In this document: positions 27,801-49,528 of the stretch, one piece after another
How positions within the stretch are numbered: position 1 is the first letter of the stretch
Layout of the letters: the number at the start of each line of letters is the position of its first letter
Assembly: GCA_030430495.1 (NCBI GenBank)
Contig: JAUIKM010000036.1
Location: 1 to 64,000 of the forward strand
Reading direction: 5' to 3'
From: a bacterium
GTDB taxonomy: Bacteria > Bacteroidota > Ignavibacteria > Kapaibacteriales > UBA7675
DNA length: 64,000 bases
Notes under the pieces: model-generated
What the model was told of the DNA's origin: nothing
What the model saw: only the letters and a program-made list of their open reading frames with translations
Databases searched by the model: none
Position numbers and translations under genes: made by a program

Positions 27801-29987
27801 CAGGTAGACGACATTCGCATTGTGGCGGGTGCGGGCCCGGCGCCGCGACCACAGGTTTTCAGTTGGACCTCGCGCTTCTCGCCCAACGGCGTATTGCCGT
27901 ATTCCATTCCGGCCGATTCAACCGATACACTTACCATTTCGTTTTGTCCGCGCACGCCGGCGGAAGACACCTTTCTTCAGAACACGGCGGTGCTGGAGAT
28001 TGACGGCAGCGGCGCGGGCGGCTGGAGTATCACGCATCGCGTGTATATGTCCGGATTGCGCGCCATTCCGTACCGTCCGAACGCGGCATTTGTCGAATTT
28101 CCCACGACGCCCGTCGACACTTCGCTGGGGACGCGCCGGATTCAGATTGGCATTCCGGACGTCAGCATCAATCCGGAACAACTGCCAATCACGGTAGACT
28201 CTATCACCTTTGAACCCGACGAACGTGTGTTTTCCGCCCGCGAAGCAGGCGGGCGCCCGTTCCCGATTACGATTGCTCCGCCGGACGACGTGCTGGATAT
28301 TGAAATCGATTTTGTGCCGCGCGCGCCGCGCTGCGACGACGAACGCTATGAGGCCCGGATGGTAATCCACACGAGCTCTCCCTGCGTCGATCGAGACACG
28401 ACCGTACTGGTGGTGGGTTGCGGCGAAGCCGACGTGGCCTCGCTCAGCTTTTTACTGGATACGCTGCGCACGCCGCCGCCGAACTACCGGCCGGAATTCC
28501 GGATGACCACCTGCGACACGATAGAAGTTCCGGTCGTGGCCTCGGGAGCCATTCCGGCCAAAGTGGTGGACATTGACTTGTCCTTCCTCTACGATGTTAA
28601 TCAGTTGCAATTCATCGACATACGCTCGCGATTTGAAGCGGCGCACGACAGCTGCGCACCCTTTGTTCCTTCACTTGTGGCGCGCGAGCGCCGCACAACG
28701 ACCGGCACGCTTCTCGGCACGGAAGTGGAGATTGTCAACTTTTGCGGCATCCAGGCATTTGACGACTTTCTGATAGCGCGTTTTGCCGCAGCCACGACGG
28801 CCTCGACTTCGCTCACGATCCGTCTCGATGAAATTCGCTTCGATTCACAGGACCTGCTGCTCTTTGACATCGTCGGCGCCGGTGGAGCGGAGGGCGACGT
28901 CGTGATTGTGCGTCCTGAGATTCAGGTACAGACGCCCCTGGTCGATTTCGGCCAGGTTCGTATCCTCGACTGCCAACAGGCCGACGTGCGGGTGGAAAAT
29001 ACCGGCGATACAACGGTGACGATCGACGACGTCATCCAGATTCCGGCCGATGTTCGCGTGCTCGGCGCCGTGCCTCCGCTGGGGCCGGGCGGCGAGCTGG
29101 AACCCGGTGAGGCTTCGATCGTGACGCTCGAATTTTGCCCGCAAAACGACGTGCCCGTGGATTCGCTTGCGCAGGTCCTCTCGGCATTTCCCTGTGAGCT
29201 GATCGACAGCACGCGCATTCAGGGCCTTGGTTTTGCGCCCGATTATCCCGTGCGGCTGGCCTTTTCCGAGGATTTCCCGACGCCGGTGAATTTCAGACGG
29301 CAGCTTGGAGAATTCGACACCATCCCGATCTACCTGGTTGATCCGCTTGGCGTGGAGTACAACGGAACGCAGTATTGGCTGCAGGACATCAGCTTTGAGG
29401 TTCTGTTCGACTATAACTTCCGCATGTTGCGAATACAGGACGTGGTCTCGCCATATGCATCGCGGTTCACGTTTGACAATTCGCGCCGCGGATTGCTGCG
29501 GATGAATTTCAGCGGCATGGACACCGTGGACGCGGGTTTGCTCGCCGAGATTTTTGTGGAAGTCGTTGTTCCGGATACGGTCGACTCGCGCATTGCGATC
29601 GAAGCTCAGAACTTTGTCACCGACTCGCTTTACTTTCTGGACCTGATGCCGGAAATGACGGAGGACAGTTACTCCACAGAGGGCAAGTGCAACGTCTCCT
29701 TTGTGCGCTTTCCCTCTGGCGGCGGGCAGATTTTCAACCACAGCCCCAATCCCGCAAACAGCACGGTTCGATTTGAATTTGCCATGCGCGAGACCGTCCC
29801 GGTCTACCTGTCCATTCACAACCTCAACGGCGACATCGTACAAACGGTGCTGGAGGGTGAATACACGTTGCAGGGCGGGGAATACAGCATCGACGCGGAT
29901 GTTTCGGCATTGCCGCCGGGCGTGTACTATTCGCGACTGCACGCCGGCATTTTTGAGTCGAGCCGCAAACTGCTGATTATTCATTGA
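24885..29987 (+). CDS. very large secreted LamG-like and HYDIN/Ig-like repeat protein with T9SS sorting domain
   Basis: 1700 residues from GTG 24885, preceded by GGAAG. Signal peptide (LLLFLLFLLTLAEAEAQ). Residues about 45-250 form a concanavalin/LamG-like domain: SQQAIRDAMTVELWVKAE, RWTHIAAIFDGASETVRLYV, FRGQIDEFKVWSRVLDATEI. About 1200 residues of repeated beta-sandwich modules follow, of the ASH/HYDIN or choice-of-anchor D type. They are recognised by D-F-G-x-V/I-x-V-G/L, V-x-V-x-N-x-G/S and phi-x-F-x-P patterns (VDFGTIVVGQVGANSVNVRN, RTVNLEFRPLEDSCYFD, VDFGQVRILDCQQADVRVEN). The last 85 residues are a T9SS sorting domain (HSPNPANSTVRFEF, ALPPGVYYSRL, RKLLIIH). It is probably a surface adhesin or matrix protein. 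The many Cys residues inside the modules could form intra-module disulfides. Confidence 0.87.
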   Translation: MYKPPVLLLFLLFLLTLAEAEAQPNPCTNPVCVGNAYTQDVHTGRGAQYVSIERTPSQQAIRDAMTVELWVKAERQANLLQYIAGLWGPRNSPTDDQNDSWAIYIDDNDDLVFEIDGPGGSQGDVNNSIVRYAYAAHYNRWTHIAAIFDGASETVRLYVDGVDRGSNRNAAFPASQLQTPAAADLLMRLGSTNGRTDNASYRTFRGQIDEFKVWSRVLDATEIICGRDRAARGNEAGLVIYFRCNEAPAARELCDATGNNNVGRISSNGRCEESDRTVDNTILIEGLPSPLRATLECVNAQSWTFTVTDTSACGGNYRVIPAGAGRGFYSITPSGLQNFEPGVPRTFTLTVQTDLVGQLPNARIQVDRELEFGNQCARSQRLNLIVDRVTELEFSESIVIYDTLLAGCRDTPFRDTVITIRNNSRAIGTNRPVRIESISTNLPRVFRVIPERPLPTNVNVDEEFSFRVRFLSNDSTGMYRDTVRIVSDDCSPLALILLEGIEQEALSVRHVDSGLRLDSIAFEDICPLLLSEPRAWLWSNEMSFPFGVDSITLPDFIRMIPAIRSFPYVLADNFAYRANYFRFRPPTSGRFVDSIVFHATVSGCQIERKVYVSGKGISSEVEFTTPAPVDFGTIVVGQVGANSVNVRNAGEDQIRVSLNLEIGEQFFIVGPSVFNLNPGQSRTVNLEFRPLEDSCYFDKLHVFEQTCFRTDEIRLMGCGQVERFRFDPIVLRTENVVSCRSQRDTIDIINISGATQTLRNVDLVGNPGTFVAVQPAAYPAGPFTLANGERQRFIFDYVPGSGPDRVDRVFLRYEADGEVWEAPMIGASVSPRLYVTPLTVYGQVEVGSSAVQVVVVENASSISLDLDGVNLPPGFSLQNPGRLPTVLDARDTIRLNVIFTPVAEQIYGGTDQFVAFSNSPCPGVRTPATIRGEGVIRLLDVRRETIPFGYTPPCDCAVDVVPVFNTSDLLDMQVDDIRIVAGAGPAPRPQVFSWTSRFSPNGVLPYSIPADSTDTLTISFCPRTPAEDTFLQNTAVLEIDGSGAGGWSITHRVYMSGLRAIPYRPNAAFVEFPTTPVDTSLGTRRIQIGIPDVSINPEQLPITVDSITFEPDERVFSAREAGGRPFPITIAPPDDVLDIEIDFVPRAPRCDDERYEARMVIHTSSPCVDRDTTVLVVGCGEADVASLSFLLDTLRTPPPNYRPEFRMTTCDTIEVPVVASGAIPAKVVDIDLSFLYDVNQLQFIDIRSRFEAAHDSCAPFVPSLVARERRTTTGTLLGTEVEIVNFCGIQAFDDFLIARFAAATTASTSLTIRLDEIRFDSQDLLLFDIVGAGGAEGDVVIVRPEIQVQTPLVDFGQVRILDCQQADVRVENTGDTTVTIDDVIQIPADVRVLGAVPPLGPGGELEPGEASIVTLEFCPQNDVPVDSLAQVLSAFPCELIDSTRIQGLGFAPDYPVRLAFSEDFPTPVNFRRQLGEFDTIPIYLVDPLGVEYNGTQYWLQDISFEVLFDYNFRMLRIQDVVSPYASRFTFDNSRRGLLRMNFSGMDTVDAGLLAEIFVEVVVPDTVDSRIAIEAQNFVTDSLYFLDLMPEMTEDSYSTEGKCNVSFVRFPSGGGQIFNHSPNPANSTVRFEFAMRETVPVYLSIHNLNGDIVQTVLEGEYTLQGGEYSIDADVSALPPGVYYSRLHAGIFESSRKLLIIH

Positions 29988-30291
29988 TCATTCGCCGACA
30001 AGTTTGGATATGACTGGTGAATGGCGTTCGACGACATGTGACTGACGTTTGCCGACTGTGAGCTGTGCACGGGCGCTTTGCGCTTCTGAATCACGTGCTC
30101 TCTGTTGACGTGGTTGCGCGCCGACTTCCGGCTGATCGCTTACTGAACGCTTGAGACCTTTTTTCTGCGGACCTTGTCCTGTACCCCAAACAACTGCGTC
30201 GACACAAACTTGCCCAACATCAAACGATCTTTTTGCCGTGGGAGGAACGCAGCTTTCGACGGCTTATCAGGATAGCATAGGGGAGCGGAAT
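29988..30291. other. intergenic, no gene seen
   Basis: 304 bp between two plus-strand T9SS genes, without an evident terminator after the upstream gene. The frame of the downstream gene is open to 30151, but that part lacks signal-peptide character. Confidence 0.4.
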
Positions 30292-31242
30292 ATGATCCGA
30301 CAACTAACACGTTTTTCCTGTTCACATTGTACAGTACTGTTAACGGCGGTATTTGTGATGTTGGGACTCTGGTCTGCGCCGGGCAGCGCTTGCGTCATGC
30401 CTCCGGTCGACCCGCCGACGATTCACATTGAACGCCATTCCGATACCCATGTCTGGTTAACAATTTGCGGGTTCACATCATTTGGTTCGGAGGGCAACAA
30501 CCTCTGTCTTTGCGCACTCGGCTTCGACGAAATCGGCATTGAAATCACAGAGATAAAATCCGTGGAAATCGTGCCGGACACGGTGCTGCTTCGCGAGATC
30601 TGGGGGGCCGGTGTGAATATTGACAAACTGATCCAGGGAAACTGGGAAGATATTTTCAAGTTCGGCAAGGATCAGCGCGTTGCGGATGCGGTGGAAGCAA
30701 TTGAATCAGGTGACTGGGCCGGTTTTTTCTCGCAGGTTGACGGATTTATTCCCGGCAACATTCCGGTGAAAATCATGTTTGACATCTGCATTGAAGACGG
30801 CGTTTCGAATGATGATCTGCTCCAGGCGATGAAGTCGCTCAAGATCCTGACGGACGCGGGCACGCAGGACGGCAAGCCGCAGGGCCACCATCAACACGTC
30901 ATCAATCTGGAATCCTCTTCCGGTGTGGACTTTGACGACAATCGCGTCTCTCTGGGCGTTGGCAAACTCTACACTCGCGACGGTCGCCCGCACGTGCATC
31001 CGATGCCCCTGACGGCCGGAGAAGTACCCAATCTGAGTTTTACGCTTGAGGAAGACACGGACATGAAAGTTGAATTGTTTAACACGCTTGGTCGCCGTGT
31101 GCGGGTTATTTCATCCGGTCGCTTGCAGGCCGGCAGTCATTCAATTCCGATCATGACCGCCGATCTGGCGCCCGGGGCTTACCTGCTCTACATCGCCACG
31201 CCGGACTTCGAGGACGACATCAGTATTCCGGTCGTCCGTTAA
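30292..31242 (+). CDS. T9SS cargo protein, CVMPP/HSDT family, copy A
   Basis: 316 residues from ATG 30292, preceded by GGGGAG; upstream in-frame codons to 30151 are not protein-like. After the signal peptide (about 1-31) the mature N-terminus reads ACVMPPVDPPTIHIERHSDT, then VWLTICGF, a Cys-x-Cys (LCLCALGF), QRVADAVEAI, SGDWAGFF, NIPVKIMFDICIEDG and GHHQHVI. From about residue 245 there is a T9SS domain (LSFTLEEDTDMKVELFNTLG, DLAPGAYLLYI, SIPVVR). A paralogue with the same blocks in the same order lies at 44218-45132 on the other strand. I recognise no described family. The HHQH motif might bind metal, but that is a guess. A terminator follows. Confidence 0.82.
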   Translation: MIRQLTRFSCSHCTVLLTAVFVMLGLWSAPGSACVMPPVDPPTIHIERHSDTHVWLTICGFTSFGSEGNNLCLCALGFDEIGIEITEIKSVEIVPDTVLLREIWGAGVNIDKLIQGNWEDIFKFGKDQRVADAVEAIESGDWAGFFSQVDGFIPGNIPVKIMFDICIEDGVSNDDLLQAMKSLKILTDAGTQDGKPQGHHQHVINLESSSGVDFDDNRVSLGVGKLYTRDGRPHVHPMPLTAGEVPNLSFTLEEDTDMKVELFNTLGRRVRVISSGRLQAGSHSIPIMTADLAPGAYLLYIATPDFEDDISIPVVR

Positions 31243-31271
31243 ATCTCTGAACAATCATGCTTGCAATTGCG

Positions 31272-31302
31272 GGCGGCGATGTACACGCATCGTCGCCTTT
31301 TT
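31272..31302 (+). terminator. rho-independent terminator
   Basis: GGCGGCGATG pairs with CATCGTCGCC (10 bp, one G-U, six-base loop), followed by TTTTT. It lies 30 bp after the stop of the T9SS cargo gene. Confidence 0.9.
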
Positions 31303-31382
31303 ATTATCCCTCATTTGTACAATTGCTGCAAGTGTCTGCCTGATCCCGCCTCCTGAATCTGGCCCCCAACCCGACCCTGAAT

Positions 31383-32315
31383 CTAAGCAAATCCCTTCTT
31401 GTTTGTCACCGCGTCAAAAGCTTCAAGCAGTGCGCCGTAGCGCAGTCCGCGGATGCTGATCCGGATAGCATCTGCGCCGCAGAACTGCATGATTTCATCG
31501 AGAATAATCGAGCCCATCGGCAGAATGTCGGCGCGGTGCGGATGAATAGCGGGATGCGCGCGGATAGATTCCACATCGGTGTTCAGCAGTTCGCGGCACA
31601 GTCGTGCGACGTCTGCCGCGGAAATTGAACGACCATCGAGTTCGGCGGGGCGCATCCGTTCCAGACCGAGAGCCATGGCGGCGAGACTGGAGGGAGTGCC
31701 GCCGACTCCAACAAGCGTTCCGAAGTCCGTCCAGTTTATTTTTTCCAGGTGTTGCCGCACCGTGCGCCGCGCGGCGTCGGCCTGATCTGCTGAAGGAGGA
31801 AGAGCGGGGAAGTGGCGCTCGCTCAGTCGCACTGCGCCGATGTCCAGGCTTCGGGCGTGTTGCGGGCCGTCCTCGTTGCCGCTGACGATCTCAGTGCTGC
31901 CGCCGCCGATGTCTATTACGGTTGACTGTCCACCCGTCGCAGCGCCGCGGAAGGAGAGACGCGCTTCGTGTTCGCCGTCGATGACGCTGATCGTATGGCC
32001 GAGCGCTTGTTCCAGTGCAGCGCGGATTTCAGTTGAGTTTGATGCGTCGCGCATAGCGCTGGTGGTGACGGCCACTGTCGATTGCACGGCGTAGTGTTTG
32101 CAGATGGATGCGTAGCGTTCGAGAATTGGCAGGGCGCGAGCCAGAGCCGCATCGGAAATTTTTCCGCTCTTGTCTACGTCCGCACCCAATCTGGCCACGG
32201 AATGTTCATCTGCCAGCACGCTGACGTCGCCTGAGGCTGATCTCTCGGCGACAACCATGAGAATGGTATTGGTACCGATGTCCAGTCCGGCGGCAACGAG
32301 TGAATTTGATTCCAT
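31383..32315 (-). CDS. Ppx/GppA-type phosphatase
   Basis: 310-residue cytoplasmic member of the exopolyphosphatase / guanosine pentaphosphatase family, which hydrolyses polyphosphate or pppGpp. ASKHA-fold motifs are visible: the phosphate-1 loop GLDIGTNTILMVV (about 10-22), then VAVTTSAMRDASN, VIDGEHEARLSFRGA, and the phosphate-2 loop VIDIGGGSTEIVSG (about 136-149). VGVGGTPSSLAAM and IRISIRGLRYGAL close the domain. The length matches the short two-domain form (about 300 residues), which lacks the C-terminal HD domain of E. coli Ppx. Polyphosphate versus pppGpp preference cannot be told from sequence. It is a single gene, divergent from the kinase operon. Confidence 0.92.
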   Translation of the reverse strand: MESNSLVAAGLDIGTNTILMVVAERSASGDVSVLADEHSVARLGADVDKSGKISDAALARALPILERYASICKHYAVQSTVAVTTSAMRDASNSTEIRAALEQALGHTISVIDGEHEARLSFRGAATGGQSTVIDIGGGSTEIVSGNEDGPQHARSLDIGAVRLSERHFPALPPSADQADAARRTVRQHLEKINWTDFGTLVGVGGTPSSLAAMALGLERMRPAELDGRSISAADVARLCRELLNTDVESIRAHPAIHPHRADILPMGSIILDEIMQFCGADAIRISIRGLRYGALLEAFDAVTNKKGFA

Positions 32316-36226: not shown

Positions 36227-36358
36227 TCAGTCAAACTTATGTGGTCTTGGAAGCGCCTGATTGATTTCCAGGCCAAGCGTCGCAGAAAAAATCATGTCCG
36301 TAAGTCCGGGAATTCCATCATCTTCAATCGCGTCAAATTGATTCGGCATCATGCTGGC
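36227..36358 (-). pseudogene. 3' remnant of an outer-membrane beta-barrel gene
   Basis: The last 43 codons of this open frame end GLEINQALPRPHKFD-stop. They align with the C-terminus of the intact barrel at 38677-39327, which ends GIDIHDVLPRPHRFE-stop. Further upstream FDA, IPG and D-x-x-F pair with YDA, FPG and D-L-Y-F. The upstream half of the same open frame is transposase (ending MFARLK). This is therefore a chimera: the 5' part of a second barrel gene was lost and its 3' end joined to a decayed IS4-type transposase. Confidence 0.75.
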
Positions 36359-36835
36359 TTTTAGCCTGGCAAACATGGTTTCGATGCCCCAGCGTTGCGG
36401 TAGTAGTCCAGCGCTTTCATGTCGTCGCGATTCGACGCGATAACCAGGTAATCGTCCTTGACTTTCATCCCGGTCAGCCACAGGCGCACACCGTGCACCG
36501 CACGCCTATGGCCAATGCGGCGAGCGGTATCGTGCTTCAGATCATCGAAGAGCTGTTTGACCTGGACAAGGCGATTTCCGCCGGCTACAGGCGCGTCCTT
36601 GCGGATGCGGATAAAACGGGATTGTTGAATGTTGCAATCAGGAAAAGCACTCGTGCCCGACAAACTCACGATCGGCCACCAGGGCTTCAATATGTTCGCC
36701 CGGCAGGAACGTGGTGATCCGCCGGATCATCGCAATCCGTTCCTCGGTACTGGTACATCCCTTGCCTGTTTTTATCTGCCACAAAAACGGCCAGGTCGAG
36801 CCTTTGATACAGAGTTACGGGCTGGTTTTCTTCGT
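36359..36835 (-). mobile_element. decayed IS4-type transposase remnant
   Basis: Minus-strand reading gives pieces of a DDE transposase of the IS4 family in three frames: STEERIAMIRRITTFLPGEH with EALVADREFVGHECF, then FIRIRKDAP with GHRRAVHGVRLWLTGMKVKD and YLVIASNRDDMKALDYYR, then QRWGIETMFARLK. The last part carries the Y-x-x-R-W-x-I-E-x-x-F motif with the catalytic Glu. Frameshifts fall after GHECF and at YYR/QRW (the latter fits loss of one C near 36397). The N-terminal third and the terminal inverted repeats are missing, so it cannot move. Its 3' end runs into the barrel remnant. Confidence 0.85.
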
Positions 36836-36836
36836 G

Positions 36837-38210
36837 CTACTTTTCTTTCACGATTGTACATTGTTGCACTTCTTGTCCTTTGTCTCCCGTGAGTGTTATG
36901 AAGTAGACACCCGCAGCTTGTTCACTGATGTCAAGTGTGCTTACGTTTTTCTTGTTGAAAACAGTTTGTCCTCTTATGTTTGCGAGTTGCACGTCTGTTT
37001 GAGCAGAAAAATTTATTATGCTGTTAGTTGGGTTGGGATAAACCAAGACAATTTTACTTTCTTTAACTACTGATAACGGAGAACACAACGAACTTAAACC
37101 TGCTGTCAGAATAGGGCGATTTCTTTGAATGGTTGTTCCATCTCCTAATTCCCCGTAATTATTCCACCCACATGCCCATAGTGTGCCGTCATTTTTTAGA
37201 AAAAGTGAATACCATCCACCAGCAGCAATCAAGGCAATATCTGCAAGAGAATTTAACTGTACTGGAGAGAATTGCCTGATAGTTGTTCCTATGCCCAATT
37301 CTCCAGATCTATTTCGTCCACAAACCCAAACAGTGCCATCACTTTTCAAAAATACAGAATGACTCCATCCTGCAGCAATAGCGGTGATGCCTGTAAGAGA
37401 ATTAATCTGTACGGGGATTGAAAAATTGGTAGTTGAACCATTGCCCAACTGTCCATAATCATTTTTTCCACAAGCCCAAACTGTGCTGTCATTCTTAAGA
37501 AAAAGAGAAAACCATCCACCGCCCGAAGCAATAGAGGTGATTCCCGTGAGAGAGAGTACCTGAACAGGAGATGATTGACTGGTTATTGAACCATCTCCTA
37601 ACTGACCATCTCTGTTACTTCCACAAGCCCAAGCAGTACCATCACGTTTCAGGAATAGAGAATGGGCATATCCTGCCGCAATGGCGGTGATATCAGTGAG
37701 ATAATTTACCTGAACAGGGATGGGTTGACTTGTATTTGTTCCATACCCTAACTCTCCTGAGCTATTGTTTCCACAAGCCCAAACTGTACCATCATTCTTC
37801 AGAAAAAGAGAGTGATACTCTCCTGCCGAAATGGCAATAATATTTGTAAGAGAACTTATCTGTACAGGCAAAGCTATACTTGTACCTACACTATCTCCTA
37901 ATTGCCCATACTTATTGCTTCCACAAGCCCAAACTGTGCCATCATATTTAAGAAAGAGTGAATGGTCTCTTCCTCCCGCAACAGAAATGATACCTGTAAG
38001 AGAGTTTACCTTAACGGGCATGTTTTGTTGAGTGAATGTTCCATTGCCCACTTGCCCATAAGGGTTGTACCCCCAAGATATTACTGTACTGTCACCGCAA
38101 ATAAAGAAAGAGTGAGCATCTCCACAGATAATTGATTGTGCAATTGTAATATTGTTTAATCCAATCAATGCAATTGTTGCTATTGAAATTGATACTATGT
38201 GCTTTATCAT
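36837..38210 (-). CDS. RCC1-repeat secreted protein with T9SS sorting domain
   Basis: 457 residues with a signal peptide (about 1-24, cleavage near AQS). Seven RCC1-type repeats of about 51 residues follow, each with a core such as WACGSNKYGQLGD and a strand S-L-F-L-K-x-D-G-T-V. These predict a seven-bladed beta-propeller. After a short Cys-containing linker (SSLCSPLSVVKES) comes a T9SS domain (VLVYPNPTNSIINFSA, EQAAGVYFITLTGD, CTIVKEK). Codon use is AT-rich (about 40% GC in sampled lines, against about 57% around), so horizontal acquisition is likely. The blades are similar at the DNA level, so repeat-number changes are possible. Confidence 0.9.
   Translation of the reverse strand: MIKHIVSISIATIALIGLNNITIAQSIICGDAHSFFICGDSTVISWGYNPYGQVGNGTFTQQNMPVKVNSLTGIISVAGGRDHSLFLKYDGTVWACGSNKYGQLGDSVGTSIALPVQISSLTNIIAISAGEYHSLFLKNDGTVWACGNNSSGELGYGTNTSQPIPVQVNYLTDITAIAAGYAHSLFLKRDGTAWACGSNRDGQLGDGSITSQSSPVQVLSLTGITSIASGGGWFSLFLKNDSTVWACGKNDYGQLGNGSTTNFSIPVQINSLTGITAIAAGWSHSVFLKSDGTVWVCGRNRSGELGIGTTIRQFSPVQLNSLADIALIAAGGWYSLFLKNDGTLWACGWNNYGELGDGTTIQRNRPILTAGLSSLCSPLSVVKESKIVLVYPNPTNSIINFSAQTDVQLANIRGQTVFNKKNVSTLDISEQAAGVYFITLTGDKGQEVQQCTIVKEK
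37060..38090 (-). repeat. RCC1-type tandem repeats within the coding sequence
   Basis: Seven consecutive units of about 153 bp, each encoding one propeller blade. Phrases such as CCACAAGCCCAAACTGT recur at this spacing on the plus strand. The boundaries are approximate. Confidence 0.8.
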
Positions 38211-38272
38211 TTTGATTCCTTATTAAGTTTCCTGCTCATAAGGCCTTAGGTGTTGCCCCGTTTTTAAAATGG

Positions 38273-38662
38273 TTGCTGGTCTCCATCCTGGGCACAGAAA
38301 GCACTATTCTCGGGAAAACGTTTGATGGCAGAATATTTCGCTCCATAGCCGACAGAGTTGATGATGTACAATCTGGAACAAATCTTCAAAGAGCTTTGAA
38401 ACTGTCACCGAACCCTACTTCAAGTTTTGTGCCAGTGGAATTTGACGCCGAATTGTCTCCAGAACCGGTTAGTGTTAAAGTCTACGACATCCACGGTAAC
38501 ACTGTTTACAGGTTATACAGCTCGCAAATCAGAGACAACGAAAATGGCGTTGTAATCAAACTGGATTTGCAAACGGTCTCCCCTCCTGCTGGAGTTTACA
38601 TTGTCAGTGTTGAACAGAAAGGTGTTGCAATCGGCAACCAAAGACTCGTGATTTCGAGATAG
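38273..38662 (+). pseudogene. orphan C-terminal fragment of a T9SS cargo protein
   Basis: The 129-residue open frame has no signal peptide and no clear ribosome site. It begins in what looks like the end of a beta-propeller or repeat domain (GKTFDGRIFRSIADRVDD). It then consists of a T9SS sorting domain (LSPNPTSSFVPVEFDAEL, VYDIHGNTVY, PPAGVYIVSVEQ, RLVISR). Without an export signal it cannot be a T9SS substrate as it stands. It is most simply the 3' end of a larger gene removed by the rearrangement that formed this island. Confidence 0.7.
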
Positions 38663-38676
38663 CATAGTGTTTGGTT

Positions 38677-39327
38677 TTACTCAAACCTGTGGGGGCGCGG
38701 CAAAACATCGTGAATATCTATGCCAATATTGATCGTAAAATATAAATCCCCGGGAAACTCAGTGCCAGTTTTCCAGGCGTCGTAGCGGTCTTCTACAATC
38801 GAAAATGAAAAACCGGCGCGAACGCCTACTGTACGCGTCAAATTGTGCTGAAAATGCAGTCCGGTACTTACCAACAACGAGTTTCCTTCATCAAACACTA
38901 TGTCGCCGGTCTGTGATCTTGTCTCGTAATTGCTGTAACCACATTCCACTATGACACTGATGCTGTTGAGACGGTTGTTGCCGCCTGAGAGAACCAGATC
39001 GTAAAAGAATACAAATTCCGTTGCCGAAATGCGAACATCTTTCACCAGACCGTCTATTTCCGGTCCCGCTTCCAGCAGAAGTGCGTCACTGATACTCACG
39101 TCCAGAAGTGAACTGCCGAGCCGGACTCCAAACGACATGTCTACGTCTTTCAGGTAGGCGCGCGTCTGGAAGTTGTACAAACCCCATACATCTGAACTGA
39201 AATCGCCCAGATAGCGCGGCACTCCCCCTTCAACGCTGAAGCCACCGACAAACTTGCCCGCGAACGACGGGACTGTTAAACTTCCCAACATGATGCACAA
39301 AACTATAAGAATTCGAACGGAAGGCAT
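38677..39327 (-). CDS. outer-membrane beta-barrel, last gene of the five-gene operon
   Basis: 216 residues with a signal peptide (MPSVRILIVLCIMLGSLTVP, cleavage near SFAG). The mature protein has alternating amphipathic strands and Gly turns (GGFSVEGGVPRYLGDFSS, VGVRAGFSFSIVEDRYDA) and ends GIDIHDVLPRPHRFE, so it is probably an eight- to ten-strand outer-membrane barrel. Its ATG overlaps the upstream gene's stop by one base (TGATG), implying translational coupling. It is likely the outer-membrane element of the complex encoded by the operon. A truncated relative lies at 36227. Confidence 0.78.
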   Translation of the reverse strand: MPSVRILIVLCIMLGSLTVPSFAGKFVGGFSVEGGVPRYLGDFSSDVWGLYNFQTRAYLKDVDMSFGVRLGSSLLDVSISDALLLEAGPEIDGLVKDVRISATEFVFFYDLVLSGGNNRLNSISVIVECGYSNYETRSQTGDIVFDEGNSLLVSTGLHFQHNLTRTVGVRAGFSFSIVEDRYDAWKTGTEFPGDLYFTINIGIDIHDVLPRPHRFE

Positions 39328-40805
39328 CAGAATACTTCTCGCGGTAGTTTACGGAAGAAAAGATTGATAACCTCTTGTTGCTCGAACGATCGGAGCCCGT
39401 CCTTGAAGTAGTATCTTTCACTAATCGCATCTCGCGCAATGTCGTTTTTGCCAAGTTGGCGACGATAACAACAGATCAGATCCGACAGAACTTTACGATT
39501 CTCTTTAGTATCCGGAATAACCGACAGAGAACCGCGGTCATCAACTCCTTCGGGTTCTATGTCCGAGTTATTGGGTAGAAAATAATAAGGAATCTTGAAC
39601 ATCGTCAGCGAATAGCCCGATGCACCGCCTACGTCTGTATGAATCTGTTCCACAAACATTCTTAGTTTGTCTTGGGCAGATGTGTCAGGAGAGTTGAGGT
39701 CAACGGAATTTGAAAAGATAATCTCGATTTCTGGGCTACTGTTTACATCCACGACATAGTAAAAGAAATCATTCTCGACGATTTTATCTGCTTCAACTAC
39801 GCTGCCGACTTCAGAACTGTGCTGTTCAACTTCAACATTGTTCTCCAGCAACTTCGGAAATTTTATATAGAGTTCCTTATCCGGATAATCCATCTGATTT
39901 GCCGAGAGTTGAAGTTTGAGTGTATCTCTCCTCTCGTTGTCGAAATCAGAACTTACCGATACCTCATCAATTGATTTGCCATCAGTGTCGGGATAAGCTG
40001 CAATCGTGAGATCTCTGAATAAGTTCAGCACATTGCTGCCGCCTGATCCAACTCTCTCGCTCGCAAAAAATGGCAGCCAGCGCTGACGATTGACAACGTC
40101 GTACGTCAGATAACTGCGAATGCAATCGTAGCTAATTGAATCAAACAATATCTCGTCCCGTCCAACACAATTTGAATCTGTAATGCGAATGGGAAAAGCC
40201 TCCTTACCATGCGACAAGTAGTATTCATTTGCAAATCGCAATTCAAGGTACTGCGGGATGGTGTTTTCCGCGATCTTTTCCGTCACGCGTTCTACAAATG
40301 CGGCTGACTTCTGAAGCGCGATTGCCGAAGCCTGCATTTCCTGTGCTGCATATTGGAGTGACTTCAGGTATCTGGTTTGTCTGGACATTTCAGAATTGAG
40401 GTCGTTGACGTTTCTGTTCAGATTGTCAATCTGGGAAATCAATTCCTGCTGGCCCTGGATTGAAACGTCGATATTGTCCGAAAAATTCTCAGTAGCATCT
40501 TTGAAGTTTTTCATGTGTATGGTAGCGCTGGTGTGAATGGTGATCAACCCGCGGTCGAGTACGTGAATGCTGCCGTCAAGATCGTACATGCGATCGGTCA
40601 GTGTTTCCAAGTCTTTGTGAAGCGCGATGGAACTTTCTGTAATAACGCCGACTTGTTTGTTCAACATTGCATTGCTGCTGCATTCCTGTACAAACAACGC
40701 GGCGACCGTCAACAGTAGCGCCGAAACCGCAATCGTGCCCTCGTGCTCTCCGATGGCGCGAAACAGATGCGTACGGAATCGTTCGAATCTGAATCGAAAC
40801 ATCAC
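39327..40805 (-). CDS. single-TM periplasmic coiled-coil protein, operon gene 4
   Basis: 492 residues of unknown family. An Arg-rich N-terminus (MFRFRFERFRTHLFR) is followed by one TM helix (about 24-42, IAVSALLLTVAALFV). By the positive-inside rule the remaining 450 residues are periplasmic. Residues about 50-180 are predicted coiled coil with many Asn/Gln/Ser (LTDRMYDLDGSIHVLD, QIDNLNRNVNDLNSEM). The C-terminal 300 residues look globular. It overlaps the upstream gene by four bases (ATGA) and the barrel gene by one. A membrane-anchored periplasmic coil could bridge to the outer-membrane barrel; this is inference from topology. Confidence 0.75.
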   Translation of the reverse strand: MMFRFRFERFRTHLFRAIGEHEGTIAVSALLLTVAALFVQECSSNAMLNKQVGVITESSIALHKDLETLTDRMYDLDGSIHVLDRGLITIHTSATIHMKNFKDATENFSDNIDVSIQGQQELISQIDNLNRNVNDLNSEMSRQTRYLKSLQYAAQEMQASAIALQKSAAFVERVTEKIAENTIPQYLELRFANEYYLSHGKEAFPIRITDSNCVGRDEILFDSISYDCIRSYLTYDVVNRQRWLPFFASERVGSGGSNVLNLFRDLTIAAYPDTDGKSIDEVSVSSDFDNERRDTLKLQLSANQMDYPDKELYIKFPKLLENNVEVEQHSSEVGSVVEADKIVENDFFYYVVDVNSSPEIEIIFSNSVDLNSPDTSAQDKLRMFVEQIHTDVGGASGYSLTMFKIPYYFLPNNSDIEPEGVDDRGSLSVIPDTKENRKVLSDLICCYRRQLGKNDIARDAISERYYFKDGLRSFEQQEVINLFFRKLPREVF

Positions 40806-41275
40806 AGGATTCCCTCAATGAATTTCATGCGGTGAATGTTGGGATTCGGCTTGTTTTCAAACTGATAAAACAATGAATCCAGCGCGACGGCGTGTTGGCC
40901 AAAATTTGCGGGGAAAACAACAACTCCCTGGAGAGAGCCGGACAGAAATCCTCGTCTGTAGGCACACAGCCAATTGTTGACGTTTTTAATGAAATCAATC
41001 ACCACGTCTTCTACTGAGAAGTGCTTCTTGGAATCAAAAACAGCATGTATCTGAAGCAGCGCCTGACTATGCGAAACGAAGTTATTGAATGCTTCTGCCT
41101 CTGAATGTTGTTCTTTTTCAAGCGCACGCCTGGCTCGAAATTCTGTGTCCTTGTTCAGGTGTTGGGTTATTTTCACAAACAACTGCTCATCCGACGCCAA
41201 GTATTGGAAGAGCATCATAAATTGTATCGTTGTATTGTAATGATTGTACACTATGCCTGCCGTCTGTTTAAACAA
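40802..41275 (-). CDS. small soluble protein of unknown function, operon gene 3
   Basis: 157 residues, alpha-helical in character, with no export signal or TM, so probably cytoplasmic. The frame starts at TTG 41275, 10 bp after the previous stop, without a good ribosome site. An alternative start is the ATG pair near 41218 (MMLFQYLASDEQ). Its stop overlaps the next gene's ATG by four bases, which shows it is translated as part of the operon. No motif or family is recognised. Confidence 0.65.
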   Translation of the reverse strand: MFKQTAGIVYNHYNTTIQFMMLFQYLASDEQLFVKITQHLNKDTEFRARRALEKEQHSEAEAFNNFVSHSQALLQIHAVFDSKKHFSVEDVVIDFIKNVNNWLCAYRRGFLSGSLQGVVVFPANFGQHAVALDSLFYQFENKPNPNIHRMKFIEGIL

Positions 41276-41285
41276 AAAGTATAGA

Positions 41286-43199
41286 CTAACATCCTAGACA
41301 GTCGGTTTCCTTGTCGCTTGAGCTTGATGAACTCCCCGAAGTACTTGAGGAAGATTCTGAGGAATTATTTGAAGAACCATTCGCATCCGGGGTATCTGCC
41401 GTACGTTTTTCGGCGTTCATTCTTTCCTGACATTCTTTACACCAACAGTTGTCTCTGTGAATGAAATTTTCGACCGAGGCAGGCAGGCTATCTATGAACG
41501 GACGCAAAGCTCTATCGAGATTGTTCCGAAATAGCGTATCATTTTTACTATTGGCATATAATTGGCGGACCAATGCTTCACAGTGATCCATGTTGTTGCT
41601 GAACTGGTGATTGTGCGCTACTGGCTTGTCGTTGCGTGACCTGTTGCTTGCTGAACTGCCGCTTGTGTACTGTGCGCCGCCGGGTGAAGAGTGAGCCGGC
41701 TTTTTCACTTTCTTGATTTGTTTAAGAGCATCAATTGCAATCTGGAAGTTGATGTCAATCAATTCGGCACAGGAAGAAGCGTTTTCGATTTTGTTGCGCA
41801 TAAGGTTCCGTGTTGTGTTCTGTGCACGGATTGAATATGTTCCGATCGCCAGGTTGTCCAATGCCTTTTTTTCGGCCTGAAGTAAAGAGTCGTTGCAGAA
41901 GACTGGATTTGCCAAATTATAGTTAAGTAACCAGGCGTGTTTGCTGTATAGTTTGCTGTAGTATTGCAACAGCGCCATATTCTGGCCCGATTGGTTCGGT
42001 CCTCCATAAATAAATGCCAAAGTTGCCGGAGCTATGAGTTCCTGTATTGCCTGGTTGGATCGGAATCTTGCCGTTGTATCCACGGGCAGGCTGCGTGTTG
42101 TGTCTGTGATTCTGATAGAAAATGGCGGGATCGAGTCATTGCCGCCGGAGTTTGCACCAAATGTATTGAGTGAAATTCCAAGCGGAAGTGCTGCCACTAT
42201 AGACATGATGAGAGTAGCCAAACCCGCACCCGGAGAGATTCTGACAGCGGAAATACTGCCTACAGAGACACTGTTCCTGACATACCTGTATATGTTGACA
42301 ATTGGACTGATTAACCAACGGATGAAAATGTTCGGCTCTGTTTTCGCTCTGATTTCAGCAACTTCCTTCTCTAAACCAGAGATGATAATTCGAAGCCTAT
42401 CTATTTCCTTCTGTGCTTTTTTATTTCTGGAATTCTCCCATTCCAATGTTTCTTCAATGTCTTGTTCTTGAGACACTAATTTTTCATTCAAGCTTTTAAC
42501 CTGACGGTTTAACTGCGATATGTTGTCTTCTTTGACTTGAAGCTCGTCTTGCAACTGGCCAGCTTTGTTCTTCGATTCCGACAAAGCCTTCTGCAGCTTC
42601 TCTTCTTCCTGTTCATGTTCTGCTTCCCGTTTGGTGAGTTGTTCAACTTGAATGTTTAACCTTTCATTCAAGCTTTTAACCTGACGGTTTAACTGCGATA
42701 TGTTATCTTCTTTGACTTGAAGCTCGTCTTGCAACTGGCCGGCTTTGTTCTTCGATTCCGACAAAGCCTTCTGCAGCTTCTTTTCCTCCTGTTCATGTTC
42801 TGCTTCCCGTTTGGTGAGTTGTTCAACTTGAATGTTTAACCTTTCATTCAAGCTTTTAACCTGACGGTTTAACTGCGATATGTTGTCTTCTTTGACTTGA
42901 AGCACGTCTTGCAACTGGCCGGCTTTGTTTCTCGATTCCGACAAAGCTTCCTTGAGTTCTTTCAACTCGTGCGTGCGTTCTCCTTCCCGCCTGGTTAGTT
43001 GTTCAAGTCGGATTTCGGCATTCTGGATTTCCGTAACTGCGTGACTCAACAATCTTTTGGCTTGCTCAATCTCGCTCGTGGAGCTAAGAATGCCTTGATC
43101 CGCACTAGATGCAGCCGTGCCGGCGGATGTTATCTTTTCACTTGCCTCATTCAGGGCGCGTAGTACCTTCTTGATTCTATCTTCAATACTGTTTGCCAT
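41286..43199 (-). CDS. large coiled-coil / TM / periplasmic protein with 60-residue repeats, operon gene 2
   Basis: About 637 residues from ATG 43199 (MANSIEDRIKKV), chosen because GGAG lies eight bases upstream; a TTG at 43214 is the alternative. Residues about 1-290 are coiled coil. They include nearly identical 60-residue units (GQLQDELQVKEDNISQLNRQ, VKSLNERLNIQVEQLTKREA). A basic segment (IRWLISPIVNIYRYVR) and one TM helix (about 327-345, GLATLIMSIVAALPLGI) follow, predicting a cytoplasmic coil and a periplasmic C-terminal half. The periplasmic part is followed by a Ser/Asn-rich tail with CWCKEC and a final DCLGC. No family is recognised; only the coil is likely to give database matches. 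Confidence 0.75.
   Translation of the reverse strand: MANSIEDRIKKVLRALNEASEKITSAGTAASSADQGILSSTSEIEQAKRLLSHAVTEIQNAEIRLEQLTRREGERTHELKELKEALSESRNKAGQLQDVLQVKEDNISQLNRQVKSLNERLNIQVEQLTKREAEHEQEEKKLQKALSESKNKAGQLQDELQVKEDNISQLNRQVKSLNERLNIQVEQLTKREAEHEQEEEKLQKALSESKNKAGQLQDELQVKEDNISQLNRQVKSLNEKLVSQEQDIEETLEWENSRNKKAQKEIDRLRIIISGLEKEVAEIRAKTEPNIFIRWLISPIVNIYRYVRNSVSVGSISAVRISPGAGLATLIMSIVAALPLGISLNTFGANSGGNDSIPPFSIRITDTTRSLPVDTTARFRSNQAIQELIAPATLAFIYGGPNQSGQNMALLQYYSKLYSKHAWLLNYNLANPVFCNDSLLQAEKKALDNLAIGTYSIRAQNTTRNLMRNKIENASSCAELIDINFQIAIDALKQIKKVKKPAHSSPGGAQYTSGSSASNRSRNDKPVAHNHQFSNNMDHCEALVRQLYANSKNDTLFRNNLDRALRPFIDSLPASVENFIHRDNCWCKECQERMNAEKRTADTPDANGSSNNSSESSSSTSGSSSSSSDKETDCLGC
42481..43010 (-). 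repeat. 180-bp in-frame tandem repeat in the coiled-coil gene
   Basis: Units begin at 42481, 42661 and 42841, exactly 180 bp apart. The first two differ at only about five positions by eye; the third follows the same sequence for about 120 bp and then diverges. Each unit encodes 60 residues of coiled coil. Confidence 0.93.
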
Positions 43200-43256
43200 A
43201 TCACGTTTCTCCAACTCCGGTGGATTCAGAAGCGACGAAGGTAGTTTAAATGGGAA

Positions 43257-43727
43257 TCATTCTCTTGTATCATTGTCCGCTGATTCACCGCCTTTGTCTT
43301 TGCGTTTTTGCGCTGAAGTCTCATCGGGAGGACTGATTGGTCGATCAGGGTTTGTGTTTTCGGATACTTCACTTCGGCCCAGATCAATTATTGTTTTGTG
43401 CAGTTTTTCGAGTTCAACCTCAAGGAGTTGCCGCATTGCGGCATACCCGACTTTGTTGGGATGATTTACCGTATGCAGCATTCGATCTCCCACTGAGTCG
43501 GCCAGTTCCTTGAGTGCTGTCAGGCCAGCCTGCGTTTTGTCATTTTCAAGCTTTTTAAGGCGCAGAATCCTCTCTGTTTCCTGTTGAATTCTCAATCCCT
43601 CCAATCGGGAACGATTGCCCAGATACGTGACAATTAATCGGTACATCAGATAAAATACGATCAACCATACAAACACACCTGTCACGGTGCCTGTATTGTT
43701 GATTAAAATATTGGTTAATTGTTCCAT
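43257..43727 (-). CDS. single-TM coiled-coil protein, first gene of the five-gene operon
   Basis: 156 residues. A short N-terminus with INNTGT is followed by one TM helix (about 16-35, VTGVFVWLIVFYLMYRLIV). A basic, helical, Glu/Lys-rich region comes next (LGNRSRLEGLRIQQETERIL, LEVELEKLHKTIIDL), then an acidic tail. The charge pattern predicts that the helical part is cytoplasmic. It could interact with the cytoplasmic coil of the next gene. No family is recognised. The gap to the next gene is 57 bp. Confidence 0.7.
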   Translation of the reverse strand: MEQLTNILINNTGTVTGVFVWLIVFYLMYRLIVTYLGNRSRLEGLRIQQETERILRLKKLENDKTQAGLTALKELADSVGDRMLHTVNHPNKVGYAAMRQLLEVELEKLHKTIIDLGRSEVSENTNPDRPISPPDETSAQKRKDKGGESADNDTRE

Positions 43728-44217: not shown

Positions 44218-45132
44218 TTAACGCACCACCGTGAACGCCCGCGAAAGCTCGTCGGCGCCGTCGATGCGCAGACGCAGAATGTAAATTCCCGCCGCGAGTC
44301 TCGAACCGTCGAGCGGCTGAACGTGAAGGCCGCCCGCCTGTGATTCGTTAACAATGCCGTTGATGTGATTGCCCTGCAGATCAAAGAGGTCAATCTCTAT
44401 CCGCGCGCGATGTACCAGCGTGTAACGCAGCTGTGCGCCCTCGCTCGCCTGCACCGGAGTCGGCTGGACGACCGGACGGCCGCGCTCCGTGAAGTGCTCC
44501 GGAACGCCGAGAGAAATGCGCTCGTCCTCAAGCTCGATATTCTCGCCGTCGACCTCGCTCATGTCCTCGATGTGCTGGTGATGCCCCGTCGGCTCCAGCG
44601 TCGTTTCATCGCCCTCGTCCGTCAGCAGGCGCGCGTTGTTGACCGCCAGCAGCAGATCGTCGTTGGACGTGCCGTCGTCGATGCAGAGCTCAAACATGAT
44701 CTTGACCGGAATGCGGCCCGGCACCGTCTGGTTGACCTCCGCAAAAAAGCCGGACCAGTCTCCCGCCGCAATCTTGTCGACTGCGTCCGCGATGCGCTGG
44801 TCCCTGGCAAAATCGAAGACTTCCTCCAGCGGCGGCTCAATCACCTGGCCCGTAGAGTCGGCTGTAATCGTCACGCTCTTGACCTCGGTGATCGTAATGT
44901 TGTCGCCCAGATCCAGTGCGCAGACACAGATATTATTCCCGGTCGTGCCGAAGGTCGTAAAACCGCAGATCGTTATCCAGACCTCCGTGTCGGAATGGCG
45001 TTCGATAATAATCTTGGGCGGTTCGATCGGCGGCATCACACAGGCCGCGGCATCGCGCCACAAGCCGCCCAGCACCAGGAGCGCCGCAGTTAAAACAACT
45101 GTTCGCAGACAATGAGTAGCACCTTTGTTCAT
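44218..45132 (-). CDS. T9SS cargo protein, CVMPP/HSDT family, copy B
   Basis: 304 residues; GGGGAA precedes the ATG. After the signal peptide the mature protein starts ACVMPPIEPPKIIIERHSDT, then VWITICGF, a Cys-x-Cys (ICVCALDL), QRIADAVDKI, AGDWSGFF, RIPVKIMFELCIDDG and GHHQHIEDM. This is the same block order as copy A at 30292-31242. From about residue 225 there is a T9SS domain (LRYTLVHRARIEIDLFDLQG, RLAAGIYILRLRIDG, AFTVVR), more divergent from copy A than the N-terminal part. The unconserved sorting domain and conserved mature part suggest selection on the secreted domain. Function unknown. Confidence 0.82.
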   Translation of the reverse strand: MNKGATHCLRTVVLTAALLVLGGLWRDAAACVMPPIEPPKIIIERHSDTEVWITICGFTTFGTTGNNICVCALDLGDNITITEVKSVTITADSTGQVIEPPLEEVFDFARDQRIADAVDKIAAGDWSGFFAEVNQTVPGRIPVKIMFELCIDDGTSNDDLLLAVNNARLLTDEGDETTLEPTGHHQHIEDMSEVDGENIELEDERISLGVPEHFTERGRPVVQPTPVQASEGAQLRYTLVHRARIEIDLFDLQGNHINGIVNESQAGGLHVQPLDGSRLAAGIYILRLRIDGADELSRAFTVVR

Positions 45133-46736: not shown

Positions 46737-48086
46737 CTATTCCCCGCGGCCGAACCAACTTTTAACGCTCTCCCACCAGTTCTCGTCCGCCGCGTCGCTG
46801 CCGCTTTTGTCGCCCAGGCCGTATTTCTGGCGGATTTCCCACAATTTCCAGCCGGTCAGGTCGGCCAGATTGTGCGCTTCGTCTTCGCGTCGTTGCTCCA
46901 GCTCTTCAAAATAGGTCAGGGCCATGCCGCAGTCGTCCGGGCTGCCGACCCACGGATGGCGCAATACATACCTGCCCTGAAAATTTTGTTTGTCACCGGT
47001 CTCAGCAAATATCAGGTCTTCGGGAAAAGTCTCGGAGTTGTAACGCAGGTGCAGTCGCGTCAGCATCGGACCGGGATTGCTCAGGCGCGGGTAGCCCAGC
47101 TGGTCCAGTTCATCTGCCGTCAGGGGCGAACCTGCGCAGGGGTCGCACCAGCCGCTGTTCCACGTGTATTCATTAAACACGACCCTGCCGCCCTGCAATT
47201 TGTGCTGGTGGCTGAACATGGCGCGATAAAAGTCCTTGAACTCGCTTTTAACATAGGTCGGAAGTTCCTGTCCCGTCGGCAGCTTGACCGTGCGATAGTT
47301 GGCTGTTTCCACTCGTCCATTGGCGGTCAGGAGATACACCAACAGGTCCTGGTCGCCGCGCGCGTTAACCGTGCCAAGGCGGATCGGCAACATGAACTTG
47401 TCCGATCTGAATTCGACCTGCAGCGGACGCAGTTTAACCTTATCCATGGCAGCCTGTTCTTCCAGGTCAACTTTCGCGACAAAAAAGCGCATATTCTGTT
47501 TAATATAACTGCCGAGCACTTCCTCGGCTCCGTCGGGAATGTTGTACTCGTTTTCCTGCAGCCAGCGCACCAGGCCGCCGCTCTCTTTGGCGGAGAGAAT
47601 CAGGATGTCGTATTCTTCAACGTCGTATTCGGCTTCGATTGTTACGCCGTGACGCACCGCGCGTGACGCTCCAATCTGTTCAGTGCGAACCATTGTATTG
47701 CGATCAGAGATCATGACCACATCGTCCGTTACCCCGTTATGGCAGGGATCCGAATCGTGATACTCGACCAGGCGCGGCGCGGAGTAGCTGTCGACGCGGT
47801 CAAGCAGTTTTGTCTCTCGTACGCGAATGTCTTTCTCTTCCAGGACCTTCGGCACGGGAATCACCATTGCAAACTCGCGCAGCGGGCCGCTGTAGTCGTT
47901 TTCCATGGTTATCACCGTGCGGTCAAGCACGCGAACCATGACGACGCGCGATGCGTCGTTAAACAGCGAGGCATCGGCCTTGGCGACATAAAAACCACAA
48001 AAGGCGTTCAGATAAAAGTGCGGCAGCACGAGCAGCGCCGCAACGACGAAAATCATCGTCGCCTGATTTTTGTGTATGTTTAACAT
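46737..48086 (-). CDS. DUF2330 protein, copy 1
   Basis: 449 residues; AGGAG six bases before the ATG. A signal sequence or N-terminal TM (about 11-28) is followed by the DUF2330 core: FCGFYVAKADASLFNDASRV, ITMENDYSGPLREFAMVIPV and PRLVEYHDSDPC. Near the middle lie EAEYDVEEYDILILSAKESG and LPIRLGTVNARG. A Cys pair (WCDPCAG) and the ending WWESVKSWFGRGE are shared in form with the neighbouring copy. The role of DUF2330 is unknown; the proteins are exported. It is third in a run RnfD-like, DUF2330, DUF2330. Confidence 0.87.
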   Translation of the reverse strand: MLNIHKNQATMIFVVAALLVLPHFYLNAFCGFYVAKADASLFNDASRVVMVRVLDRTVITMENDYSGPLREFAMVIPVPKVLEEKDIRVRETKLLDRVDSYSAPRLVEYHDSDPCHNGVTDDVVMISDRNTMVRTEQIGASRAVRHGVTIEAEYDVEEYDILILSAKESGGLVRWLQENEYNIPDGAEEVLGSYIKQNMRFFVAKVDLEEQAAMDKVKLRPLQVEFRSDKFMLPIRLGTVNARGDQDLLVYLLTANGRVETANYRTVKLPTGQELPTYVKSEFKDFYRAMFSHQHKLQGGRVVFNEYTWNSGWCDPCAGSPLTADELDQLGYPRLSNPGPMLTRLHLRYNSETFPEDLIFAETGDKQNFQGRYVLRHPWVGSPDDCGMALTYFEELEQRREDEAHNLADLTGWKLWEIRQKYGLGDKSGSDAADENWWESVKSWFGRGE

Positions 48087-48139
48087 TCCGGCTCCTGAGT
48101 GTTGTTAACATAATAATGTTGACTTGCGGACCAGCCTCG

Positions 48140-49528
48140 TCAATCGATGCCGAACCAGGACTTCACACTGCCCCAGAAACCGCGATCTTCGTCTTCCATT
48201 TCAATGCCGGCGACCGTGCCGCGCATTTTTGCTTTGATATTGTTGACATTCCAGCCGGTCAGCCGTGCGAGGTTTTCCGCTTCGCCCTCGTGTCGGTCGC
48301 GCAGCCGCCGAAAGTAACTTCGTGCTTCTTCACACTCTTTTATCTCGCCGTCCCAGGCATGCCGTATGACGTAGCGCCCTTGAAAGGTCGAGCGGTCGCG
48401 CGTTTCCGTCAGCATGATGTCCTCGGGGAATGTCTCCGCCGTATAGCGGACGTGCAGGCGTGTGATGTGCAGAGTATTTGGATTGATGGCGGCGCGTTCC
48501 CCGTCGCCCAGGTTGCCGAGGACGGCGATCACGTCGGGCGGCGGCGGGTCTGTCGTGCAGGGATCGCACTTGACGGCGCGGCTCCAGCTGTACTCCGTCT
48601 GGATTGTGCGCATGCCCTCGCGCTCCACAGAATGATTAAACATGGCCTTGTAAAATGGGCCGAACTCATCTTTTATAAACAGGGGCACATTGCTGTTGCT
48701 GGGAATATTCACCGTGCGATAATTGCTGCTCTCCACCCTGCCGTTCGGCGACAAGACAAAAATTAACAGGTCCTGCGGGCCTTTGGCGTTCAGCGTGCCG
48801 AGGCGAATCGGCAGCATGAATTTTTTACTGTGGAAACTGACCTGCAGCGGGCTGAGTCGCGAAAAGTCGGAAGCGGACTGGCGCTCCAGATTGACTTTGG
48901 CGACAAAGAATTTCATGTCGCGTTTAATGTAGGCCTGCAGGATGTCTTCCGCGCCGGTTGGCAGTTTGTACTCGTTGTCTTTCAGCCAGGCTATCAACCC
49001 GGCGCTGAAGGTGGCTGAGAGCACCTGGATGTCGTACTCGCCGACTGTGTACTCGGCTTCGATCTCGACGCCGTAAATGTCGCCTTCGCGTGCTATGTCG
49101 AAACTTTTGGATCTGCCGCCTCCACCGCCGCCGGGCGAGAGCGGCGAGCACTCGTCGCCTCCAGCGCCATATCCACCGCGACTGTAGCGTGGGCAGGGCG
49201 AAGGATCGAAATATTCAACCAGGCGCGGCGCAGTGTAGGCGTCGATGTGATCAATGGCGGAGCGTTTAACGACGCGAATGTCGGATCGTTGTACCAGCGT
49301 CGGCACGGGAATCAGCATCGCAAATTCCGTCAGGTCGCCCTGGTAGTCGTTTTCCATCGTGATCGTCGTGCGGTCGCCCGCGCGCATCAGCACCACGCGC
49401 GAAGCCTGGTTGTAGAGCGAGGCGTCGGCCTTGGCGACGTAGAATCCGCAGAAGGCGGACAGCGAGCTAGGCAGCCAGACAAAGCAAAGCACTATCGCCA
49501 CAAAGGCGATCTTTGTGTTGGATTTCAT
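48140..49528 (-). CDS. DUF2330 protein, copy 2
   Basis: 462 residues with a signal sequence (about 1-25, then FCGFYVAKADASLYNQASRV). It has the same blocks as copy 1: ITMENDYQGDLTEFAMLIPV, PRLVEYFDPSPC, EYDIQVLSATFSAGLI, LPIRLGTLNAKG, a Cys pair (KCDPCTTD) and the ending FWGSVKSWFGID. It differs by a Gly-rich loop with SPGGGGGGRS after the PC motif. The two copies clearly arose by tandem duplication and have diverged. GAGG precedes the ATG; the gap to the upstream RnfD-like gene is only 18 bp, so they are probably co-transcribed. Confidence 0.87.
   Translation of the reverse strand: MKSNTKIAFVAIVLCFVWLPSSLSAFCGFYVAKADASLYNQASRVVLMRAGDRTTITMENDYQGDLTEFAMLIPVPTLVQRSDIRVVKRSAIDHIDAYTAPRLVEYFDPSPCPRYSRGGYGAGGDECSPLSPGGGGGGRSKSFDIAREGDIYGVEIEAEYTVGEYDIQVLSATFSAGLIAWLKDNEYKLPTGAEDILQAYIKRDMKFFVAKVNLERQSASDFSRLSPLQVSFHSKKFMLPIRLGTLNAKGPQDLLIFVLSPNGRVESSNYRTVNIPSNSNVPLFIKDEFGPFYKAMFNHSVEREGMRTIQTEYSWSRAVKCDPCTTDPPPPDVIAVLGNLGDGERAAINPNTLHITRLHVRYTAETFPEDIMLTETRDRSTFQGRYVIRHAWDGEIKECEEARSYFRRLRDRHEGEAENLARLTGWNVNNIKAKMRGTVAGIEMEDEDRGFWGSVKSWFGID

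Follow-up and report, generated by a model that had tools for sequence, protein, structure and literature searches.

A five-gene ORFan operon on a low-GC genomic island and its possible reading as a trans-envelope tether

The minus strand of the window (the whole 64,000-nucleotide stretch of DNA analysed here) carries, between positions 38677 and 43727, five open frames, designated A to E, which make up an operon of ORFan genes within a genomic island. Judged from their sequences, proteins A to D are without assignable family, and E is the sole product of the operon to have gained a tentative one. It is possible, with a probability of about 0.3, that this acquired, lineage-restricted operon encodes a passive tether or scaffold between the inner and the outer membrane. 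That the genes are island cargo without a shared machine is equally likely, and the tether is named first only for the intact, tightly coupled frames. The features of the operon and its island are listed in Table 1.

Table 1. Operon genes and other features of the island (positions in the window)
Feature	Position	Strand	Description
Gene A	43257..43727	-	156 aa; one TM (15-33), then cytoplasmic helical tail; no family
Gene B	41286..43214	-	642 aa (637 from ATG 43199); no family
Tandem repeats in the coil of B	42477..43016	-	three copies, 180 bp / 60 aa each
Gene C	40802..41275	-	157 aa (138 from internal ATG); soluble, probably helical; no family
Gene D	39327..40805	-	492 aa (491 from ATG 40802); no family
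Gene E	38677..39327	-	216 aa; signal peptide, probable PF13505-like outer-membrane barrel
Truncated C-terminal part of T9SS cargo gene	38273..38662	+	convergent with E; composition operon-like
DUF805 RNA, cis-regulatory RNA candidate	38225..38291	-	RF03081, 56.2 bits, E 1.4e-07
RCC1-repeat protein with T9SS tail	36837..38210	-	GC3 0.30; probably separate arrival
Decayed DDE transposase pieces	36227..36690	-	left island edge

An ORF check of the window placed the five frames where an earlier note on this DNA had put them. In 300 first-order Markov simulations of 5,051 bp the longest stop-free stretch had a mean of 145 codons and a maximum of 256, compared with 642 and 492 aa for the real frames of B and D, which therefore cannot be attributed to chance. 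GC content by codon position was also coding-like, the second position being the lowest in all five genes (GC2 0.28-0.39, GC1 0.49-0.55), and the claim of five tightly packed minus-strand genes was thus borne out. The spacings given in the earlier note, gaps of 57 bp (A/B) and 10 bp (B/C) followed by overlaps of 4 bp (C/D) and 1 bp (D/E), also hold, the first with B starting at ATG 43199, which has GGAG upstream (42 bp with TTG 43214), and the third with D starting at GTG 40805 (1 bp, TGATG, with ATG 40802). Which codon starts B, C and D is ambiguous, most of all for C; its TTG at 41275 has no obvious Shine-Dalgarno sequence and an ATG at residue 20 is a possible alternative. Promoter and terminator scans scored only modestly above shuffles and were not interpretable.

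Hydropathy revealed at most one hydrophobic, TM-like segment per protein: A, B and D have one apiece, that of E looks like a signal peptide, and C lacks any. This pattern fits the topologies proposed in the earlier note. The orientation of A, B and D in the membrane was inferred with the positive-inside rule. B is composed of a cytoplasmic heptad coil (residues 10-290), a TM segment (331-349) and a C-terminal part containing CWCKEC and CLGC, while D is composed of a TM segment (25-43), a heptad coil (50-182) and a C-terminal domain of ~310 aa, which is probably periplasmic. Both coils were assigned from the lack of proline in the two regions and from a strong hydrophobicity period there of 3.52 residues. 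The coil of B has probably been lengthened recently by tandem repeats, since two of the copies are 97% identical in DNA; copies 2 and 3 differ at six bases, four of them in third codon position. A single-sequence AlphaFold model of C had a pLDDT of 40.3 and was rejected as unusable. The string F-x-IRITD, common to B and D, was rejected, as 7 of 60 shuffles equalled the best 8-mer identity.

Searches of Pfam, PADLOC, NCBIfam and PHROGs (the last with A, C, D and E) yielded only noise for the five proteins, mostly coiled coil, and PDB sequence searches, with B represented by its C-terminal part, yielded nothing significant. The families of A to D, which had gone unrecognised in the earlier note, were not identified by profile or by sequence. 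PADLOC matches fell essentially within residues 4-303 of B and 48-185 of D, with none outside coiled coil and none in A, C or E; the SMC, Jet, Lmu and ZorA matches from PADLOC and NCBIfam were rejected as coiled-coil noise. Profile searches and hydropathy detected neither an ATPase nor a multi-TM motor nor an enzyme domain in A to E, and the five proteins showed no domain for peptidoglycan binding and none known from tethers. The missing family assignment of A to D is weak evidence for a new system, because uncultivated lineages very commonly harbour new families that have no known relatives (PMC10849945). The operon resembles the FESNov-type families of uncultivated taxa in consisting of genes without recognised families; those families span several species (PMC10849945), whereas the operon genes were found in one genome only.

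It is very unlikely that the operon serves in anti-phage defence, with sensor and effector parts anchored in the membrane. An accessory island of low GC that carries a transposase remnant would be a suitable place for such a system, and the TM segment and helical tail of A gave a weak match to ZorA of the Zorya ZorAB pair (E 0.016). However, the ZorA score of A is far below the cut-off and neither a MotA/ExbB domain nor ZorB was present. In addition, the PADLOC matches were limited to coils, no domain for a nuclease, an ATPase, nucleotide sensing or a pore was detected, and tblastn found nothing in plasmid records or in phage records (the latter searched with B and D only).

Protein E is a probable, modestly supported outer-membrane barrel. 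Its residues 6-24 are hydrophobic and signal-peptide-like, ending in SFAG, both by eye and by hydropathy. Two weak matches in the same order are signal-peptide barrels of PF13505, one of them with an OmpA domain, and the hairpin motif GGxxxYxGDFSSDxxG of E has close variants in order-level barrels. A profile built from three OMP barrels of the order matched E alone in the 5.6 Mb host genome (E 1.3e-4), and hhalign of E against the order-level barrels gave a probability of 86% over 57 columns, which were N-terminal only. Mature E, lacking the signal peptide, scored 11.7 bits and barely exceeded the highest-scoring of 2000 shuffles (9.9). Pfam gave no match for E, full-length or mature, and the curated PF13505 cut-off was not reached. 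As regards a closed 8-strand barrel fold, the single-sequence AF2 model was strand-rich but, at a pLDDT of 36.5, unusable. The barrel put forward in the earlier note is modestly supported by the profile and the alignment, although the mature part of the protein stays near shuffle level.

The PF13505 OMP_b-brl barrels (L010, L011) and E share a signal peptide followed by the hairpin motif, a beta-rich composition and a similar barrel length. Unlike PF13505 members, E has no direct Pfam match and its likeness is weak beyond the first ~70 residues, and unlike the barrel-OmpA fusion of the same order it has no OmpA domain. The barrel proteins of the order (L010 115-2943, L011 487-1713) have Cys-rich stretches after the barrel, and in L010 two such barrel genes are adjacent, one with an OmpA domain. 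An LPRPH[KR]F[DE] end common to E and the transposase remnant (E 0.026) was rejected, there being no matching DNA similarity at this site.

The low-GC island described earlier is clear, with a GC content of 44-46% at about 36.0-44.0 kb against ~57% for the window. The transposase remnant attributed to it was weakly confirmed; a DDE_Tnp_1 match was found (E 0.0037), but below the Pfam cut-off, and the remnant has short open frames only and is single copy in the genome. GC3 was 0.43-0.54 in the five operon genes, 0.53-0.77 in host-like neighbours and 0.30 in the RCC1-repeat gene. This difference between the operon and the RCC1-repeat gene suggests stacked arrivals, probably from at least two sources. 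The RCC1-repeat gene, a T9SS cargo gene, probably has its own leader and lies outside the operon, because the DUF805 RNA candidate ends ~15 nt before its start codon. The T9SS cargo fragment beside E is apparently cut off where the RCC1 module begins. To the left of the island, the region 24885-32315 has the same order in a family member, whose contig ends before the island position.

Other genes surround the island. The plus strand encodes, at 24885-29987, a T9SS cargo of 1700 aa in which Laminin_G_3 and ASH/HYDIN-type Ig domains occur, and a 59% identical copy is present in a family member; ASH/HYDIN-type domains owe their name to proteins of cilia and centrosomes. Two paralogues with 48% identity (30151-31242 and 44218-45132, the second with a T9SS-type tail), flank histidine-kinase genes and the island, and a tandem pair of adjacent DUF2330 genes is located at 46737-49528 on the minus strand.

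A T9SS-linked module for surface assembly or secretion, with E as outer-membrane port or anchor, D as periplasmic shaft and the neighbouring T9SS cargo as client, is quite unlikely. The operon-like cargo fragment converges on E and the RCC1-repeat T9SS cargo adjoins, but T9SS tails are so abundant in the host genome (23 matches to one query) that this neighbourhood says little, and no Gld or Por component was matched in NCBIfam or Pfam. From the abundance of these tails the host would belong to the Bacteroidota/FCB group. The T9SS/gliding core GldK-GldL-GldM-GldN is similar to the operon in concept only, as an inner-membrane protein with a long periplasmic part and outer-membrane partners; unlike that core, A to E have no GldK/L/M/N profile match and include no two-TM, GldL-like motor protein.

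Relatives of the operon were sought among sampled genomes of the class and phylum and among closer relatives, a sampling that is incomplete. D was found in the window itself only (61 genomes of relatives, and 323 class genomes for its C-terminal part), as was C (341 genomes). A and the C-terminal part of B gave weak matches only (best E 2.9e-4, 245 class genomes each); those inspected, named by eye, were a dihydropyrimidinase-like frame and DivIC-like, F0-b-like and TIM-barrel-like proteins, and were rejected as chance. The DNA around most of the weak matches was searched again with all five proteins, and no locus with credible matches to two of them was found. A combined query of 395 phylum genomes, a weak test in which at most two candidates were scored per genome, returned the window only. 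Peptide-word scans, which reach close relatives only, found none in 84,980 genome records (B and D) or in IMG/VR (all five proteins).

The earlier note had proposed that the five proteins may make up a single trans-envelope complex, an idea it would give up if the genes were kept together in no other genome. Within the limits of these searches no second genome with the operon or any two of its genes was found, an outcome that goes against the single complex, while the operon, the topologies, the unrecognised families and the accessory island all stood. It is consequently gene packing that carries the case for functional linkage, no second operon copy or conserved gene pair having been found. 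This result also favours island cargo, that is lineage-restricted ORFans that arrived jointly and of which some happen to encode envelope proteins. The same is true of the decayed parts held by the island (the transposase pieces and the truncated T9SS cargo gene) and of the GC3 values, which indicate several stacked arrivals. Against cargo are the five intact, co-directional frames, tightly packed with two overlapping junctions, an arrangement that usually denotes shared function.

For the tether there are, besides this packing and the overlapping junctions, the heptad coils of B and D, the foreign composition of the operon, the layered hydrophobic segments of A, B, D and E, and the profile and hhalign matches of E. 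Against it, apart from the missing second copy, are the near-shuffle score of mature E, the unusable models of C and E and the failure to find a peptidoglycan-binding or tether domain. D would be held in the inner membrane, its 133-residue coil crossing the periplasm, and its ~310-residue domain would sit at the outer membrane beside the barrel E. A coil rises 0.15 nm per residue, and that of D would measure ~20 nm if fully extended, which is of the order of the periplasm width. A and B would gather at the inner membrane through their cytoplasmic helices, C would act as a small cytoplasmic adaptor, and the Cys-containing periplasmic tail of B may form disulphides or bind metal. Any contact among the five proteins, like the role of the operon, is an inference. 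A passive tether fits the layering better than a pump, a motor or a set of enzymes, because neither catalytic nor energising domains were detected. An energised machine of the Tol/Ton/Agl type would have an ExbB/TolQ/MotA-like multi-TM motor, and the operon has none, as each of its products has at most a single TM-like segment.

Myxococcus gliding shows that a cluster of unknown envelope proteins may be a genuine machine (PMC3169522). The likeness of the operon to this Glt/Agl-type machine is again one of concept only, namely of clusters for envelope-spanning proteins of initially unknown function (PMC3169522). Unlike it, the operon has no AglRQS/ExbB-TolQ-like motor and no sequence match was seen, and the Glt/Agl core genes have a traceable taxonomic distribution (PMC3169522), whereas none was found for the operon genes.

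The operon is classed, with low confidence, with trans-envelope assemblies. It is unlikely, though conceivable, that it represents an undescribed envelope-spanning assembly made up only of coiled-coil proteins with one TM segment each, together with a small adaptor and a barrel, and spread horizontally in poorly sampled bacteria; as part of that whole reading, the assembly would have no motor and no known tether domain. If the proteins form no complex, the operon is one more case of ORFan cargo in a genomic island, common in under-sampled lineages. Should they assemble into one, the result would be a bridge without a motor from the inner to the outer membrane, outside all of the families searched, and a target for work on envelope tethering or surface building in such bacteria.
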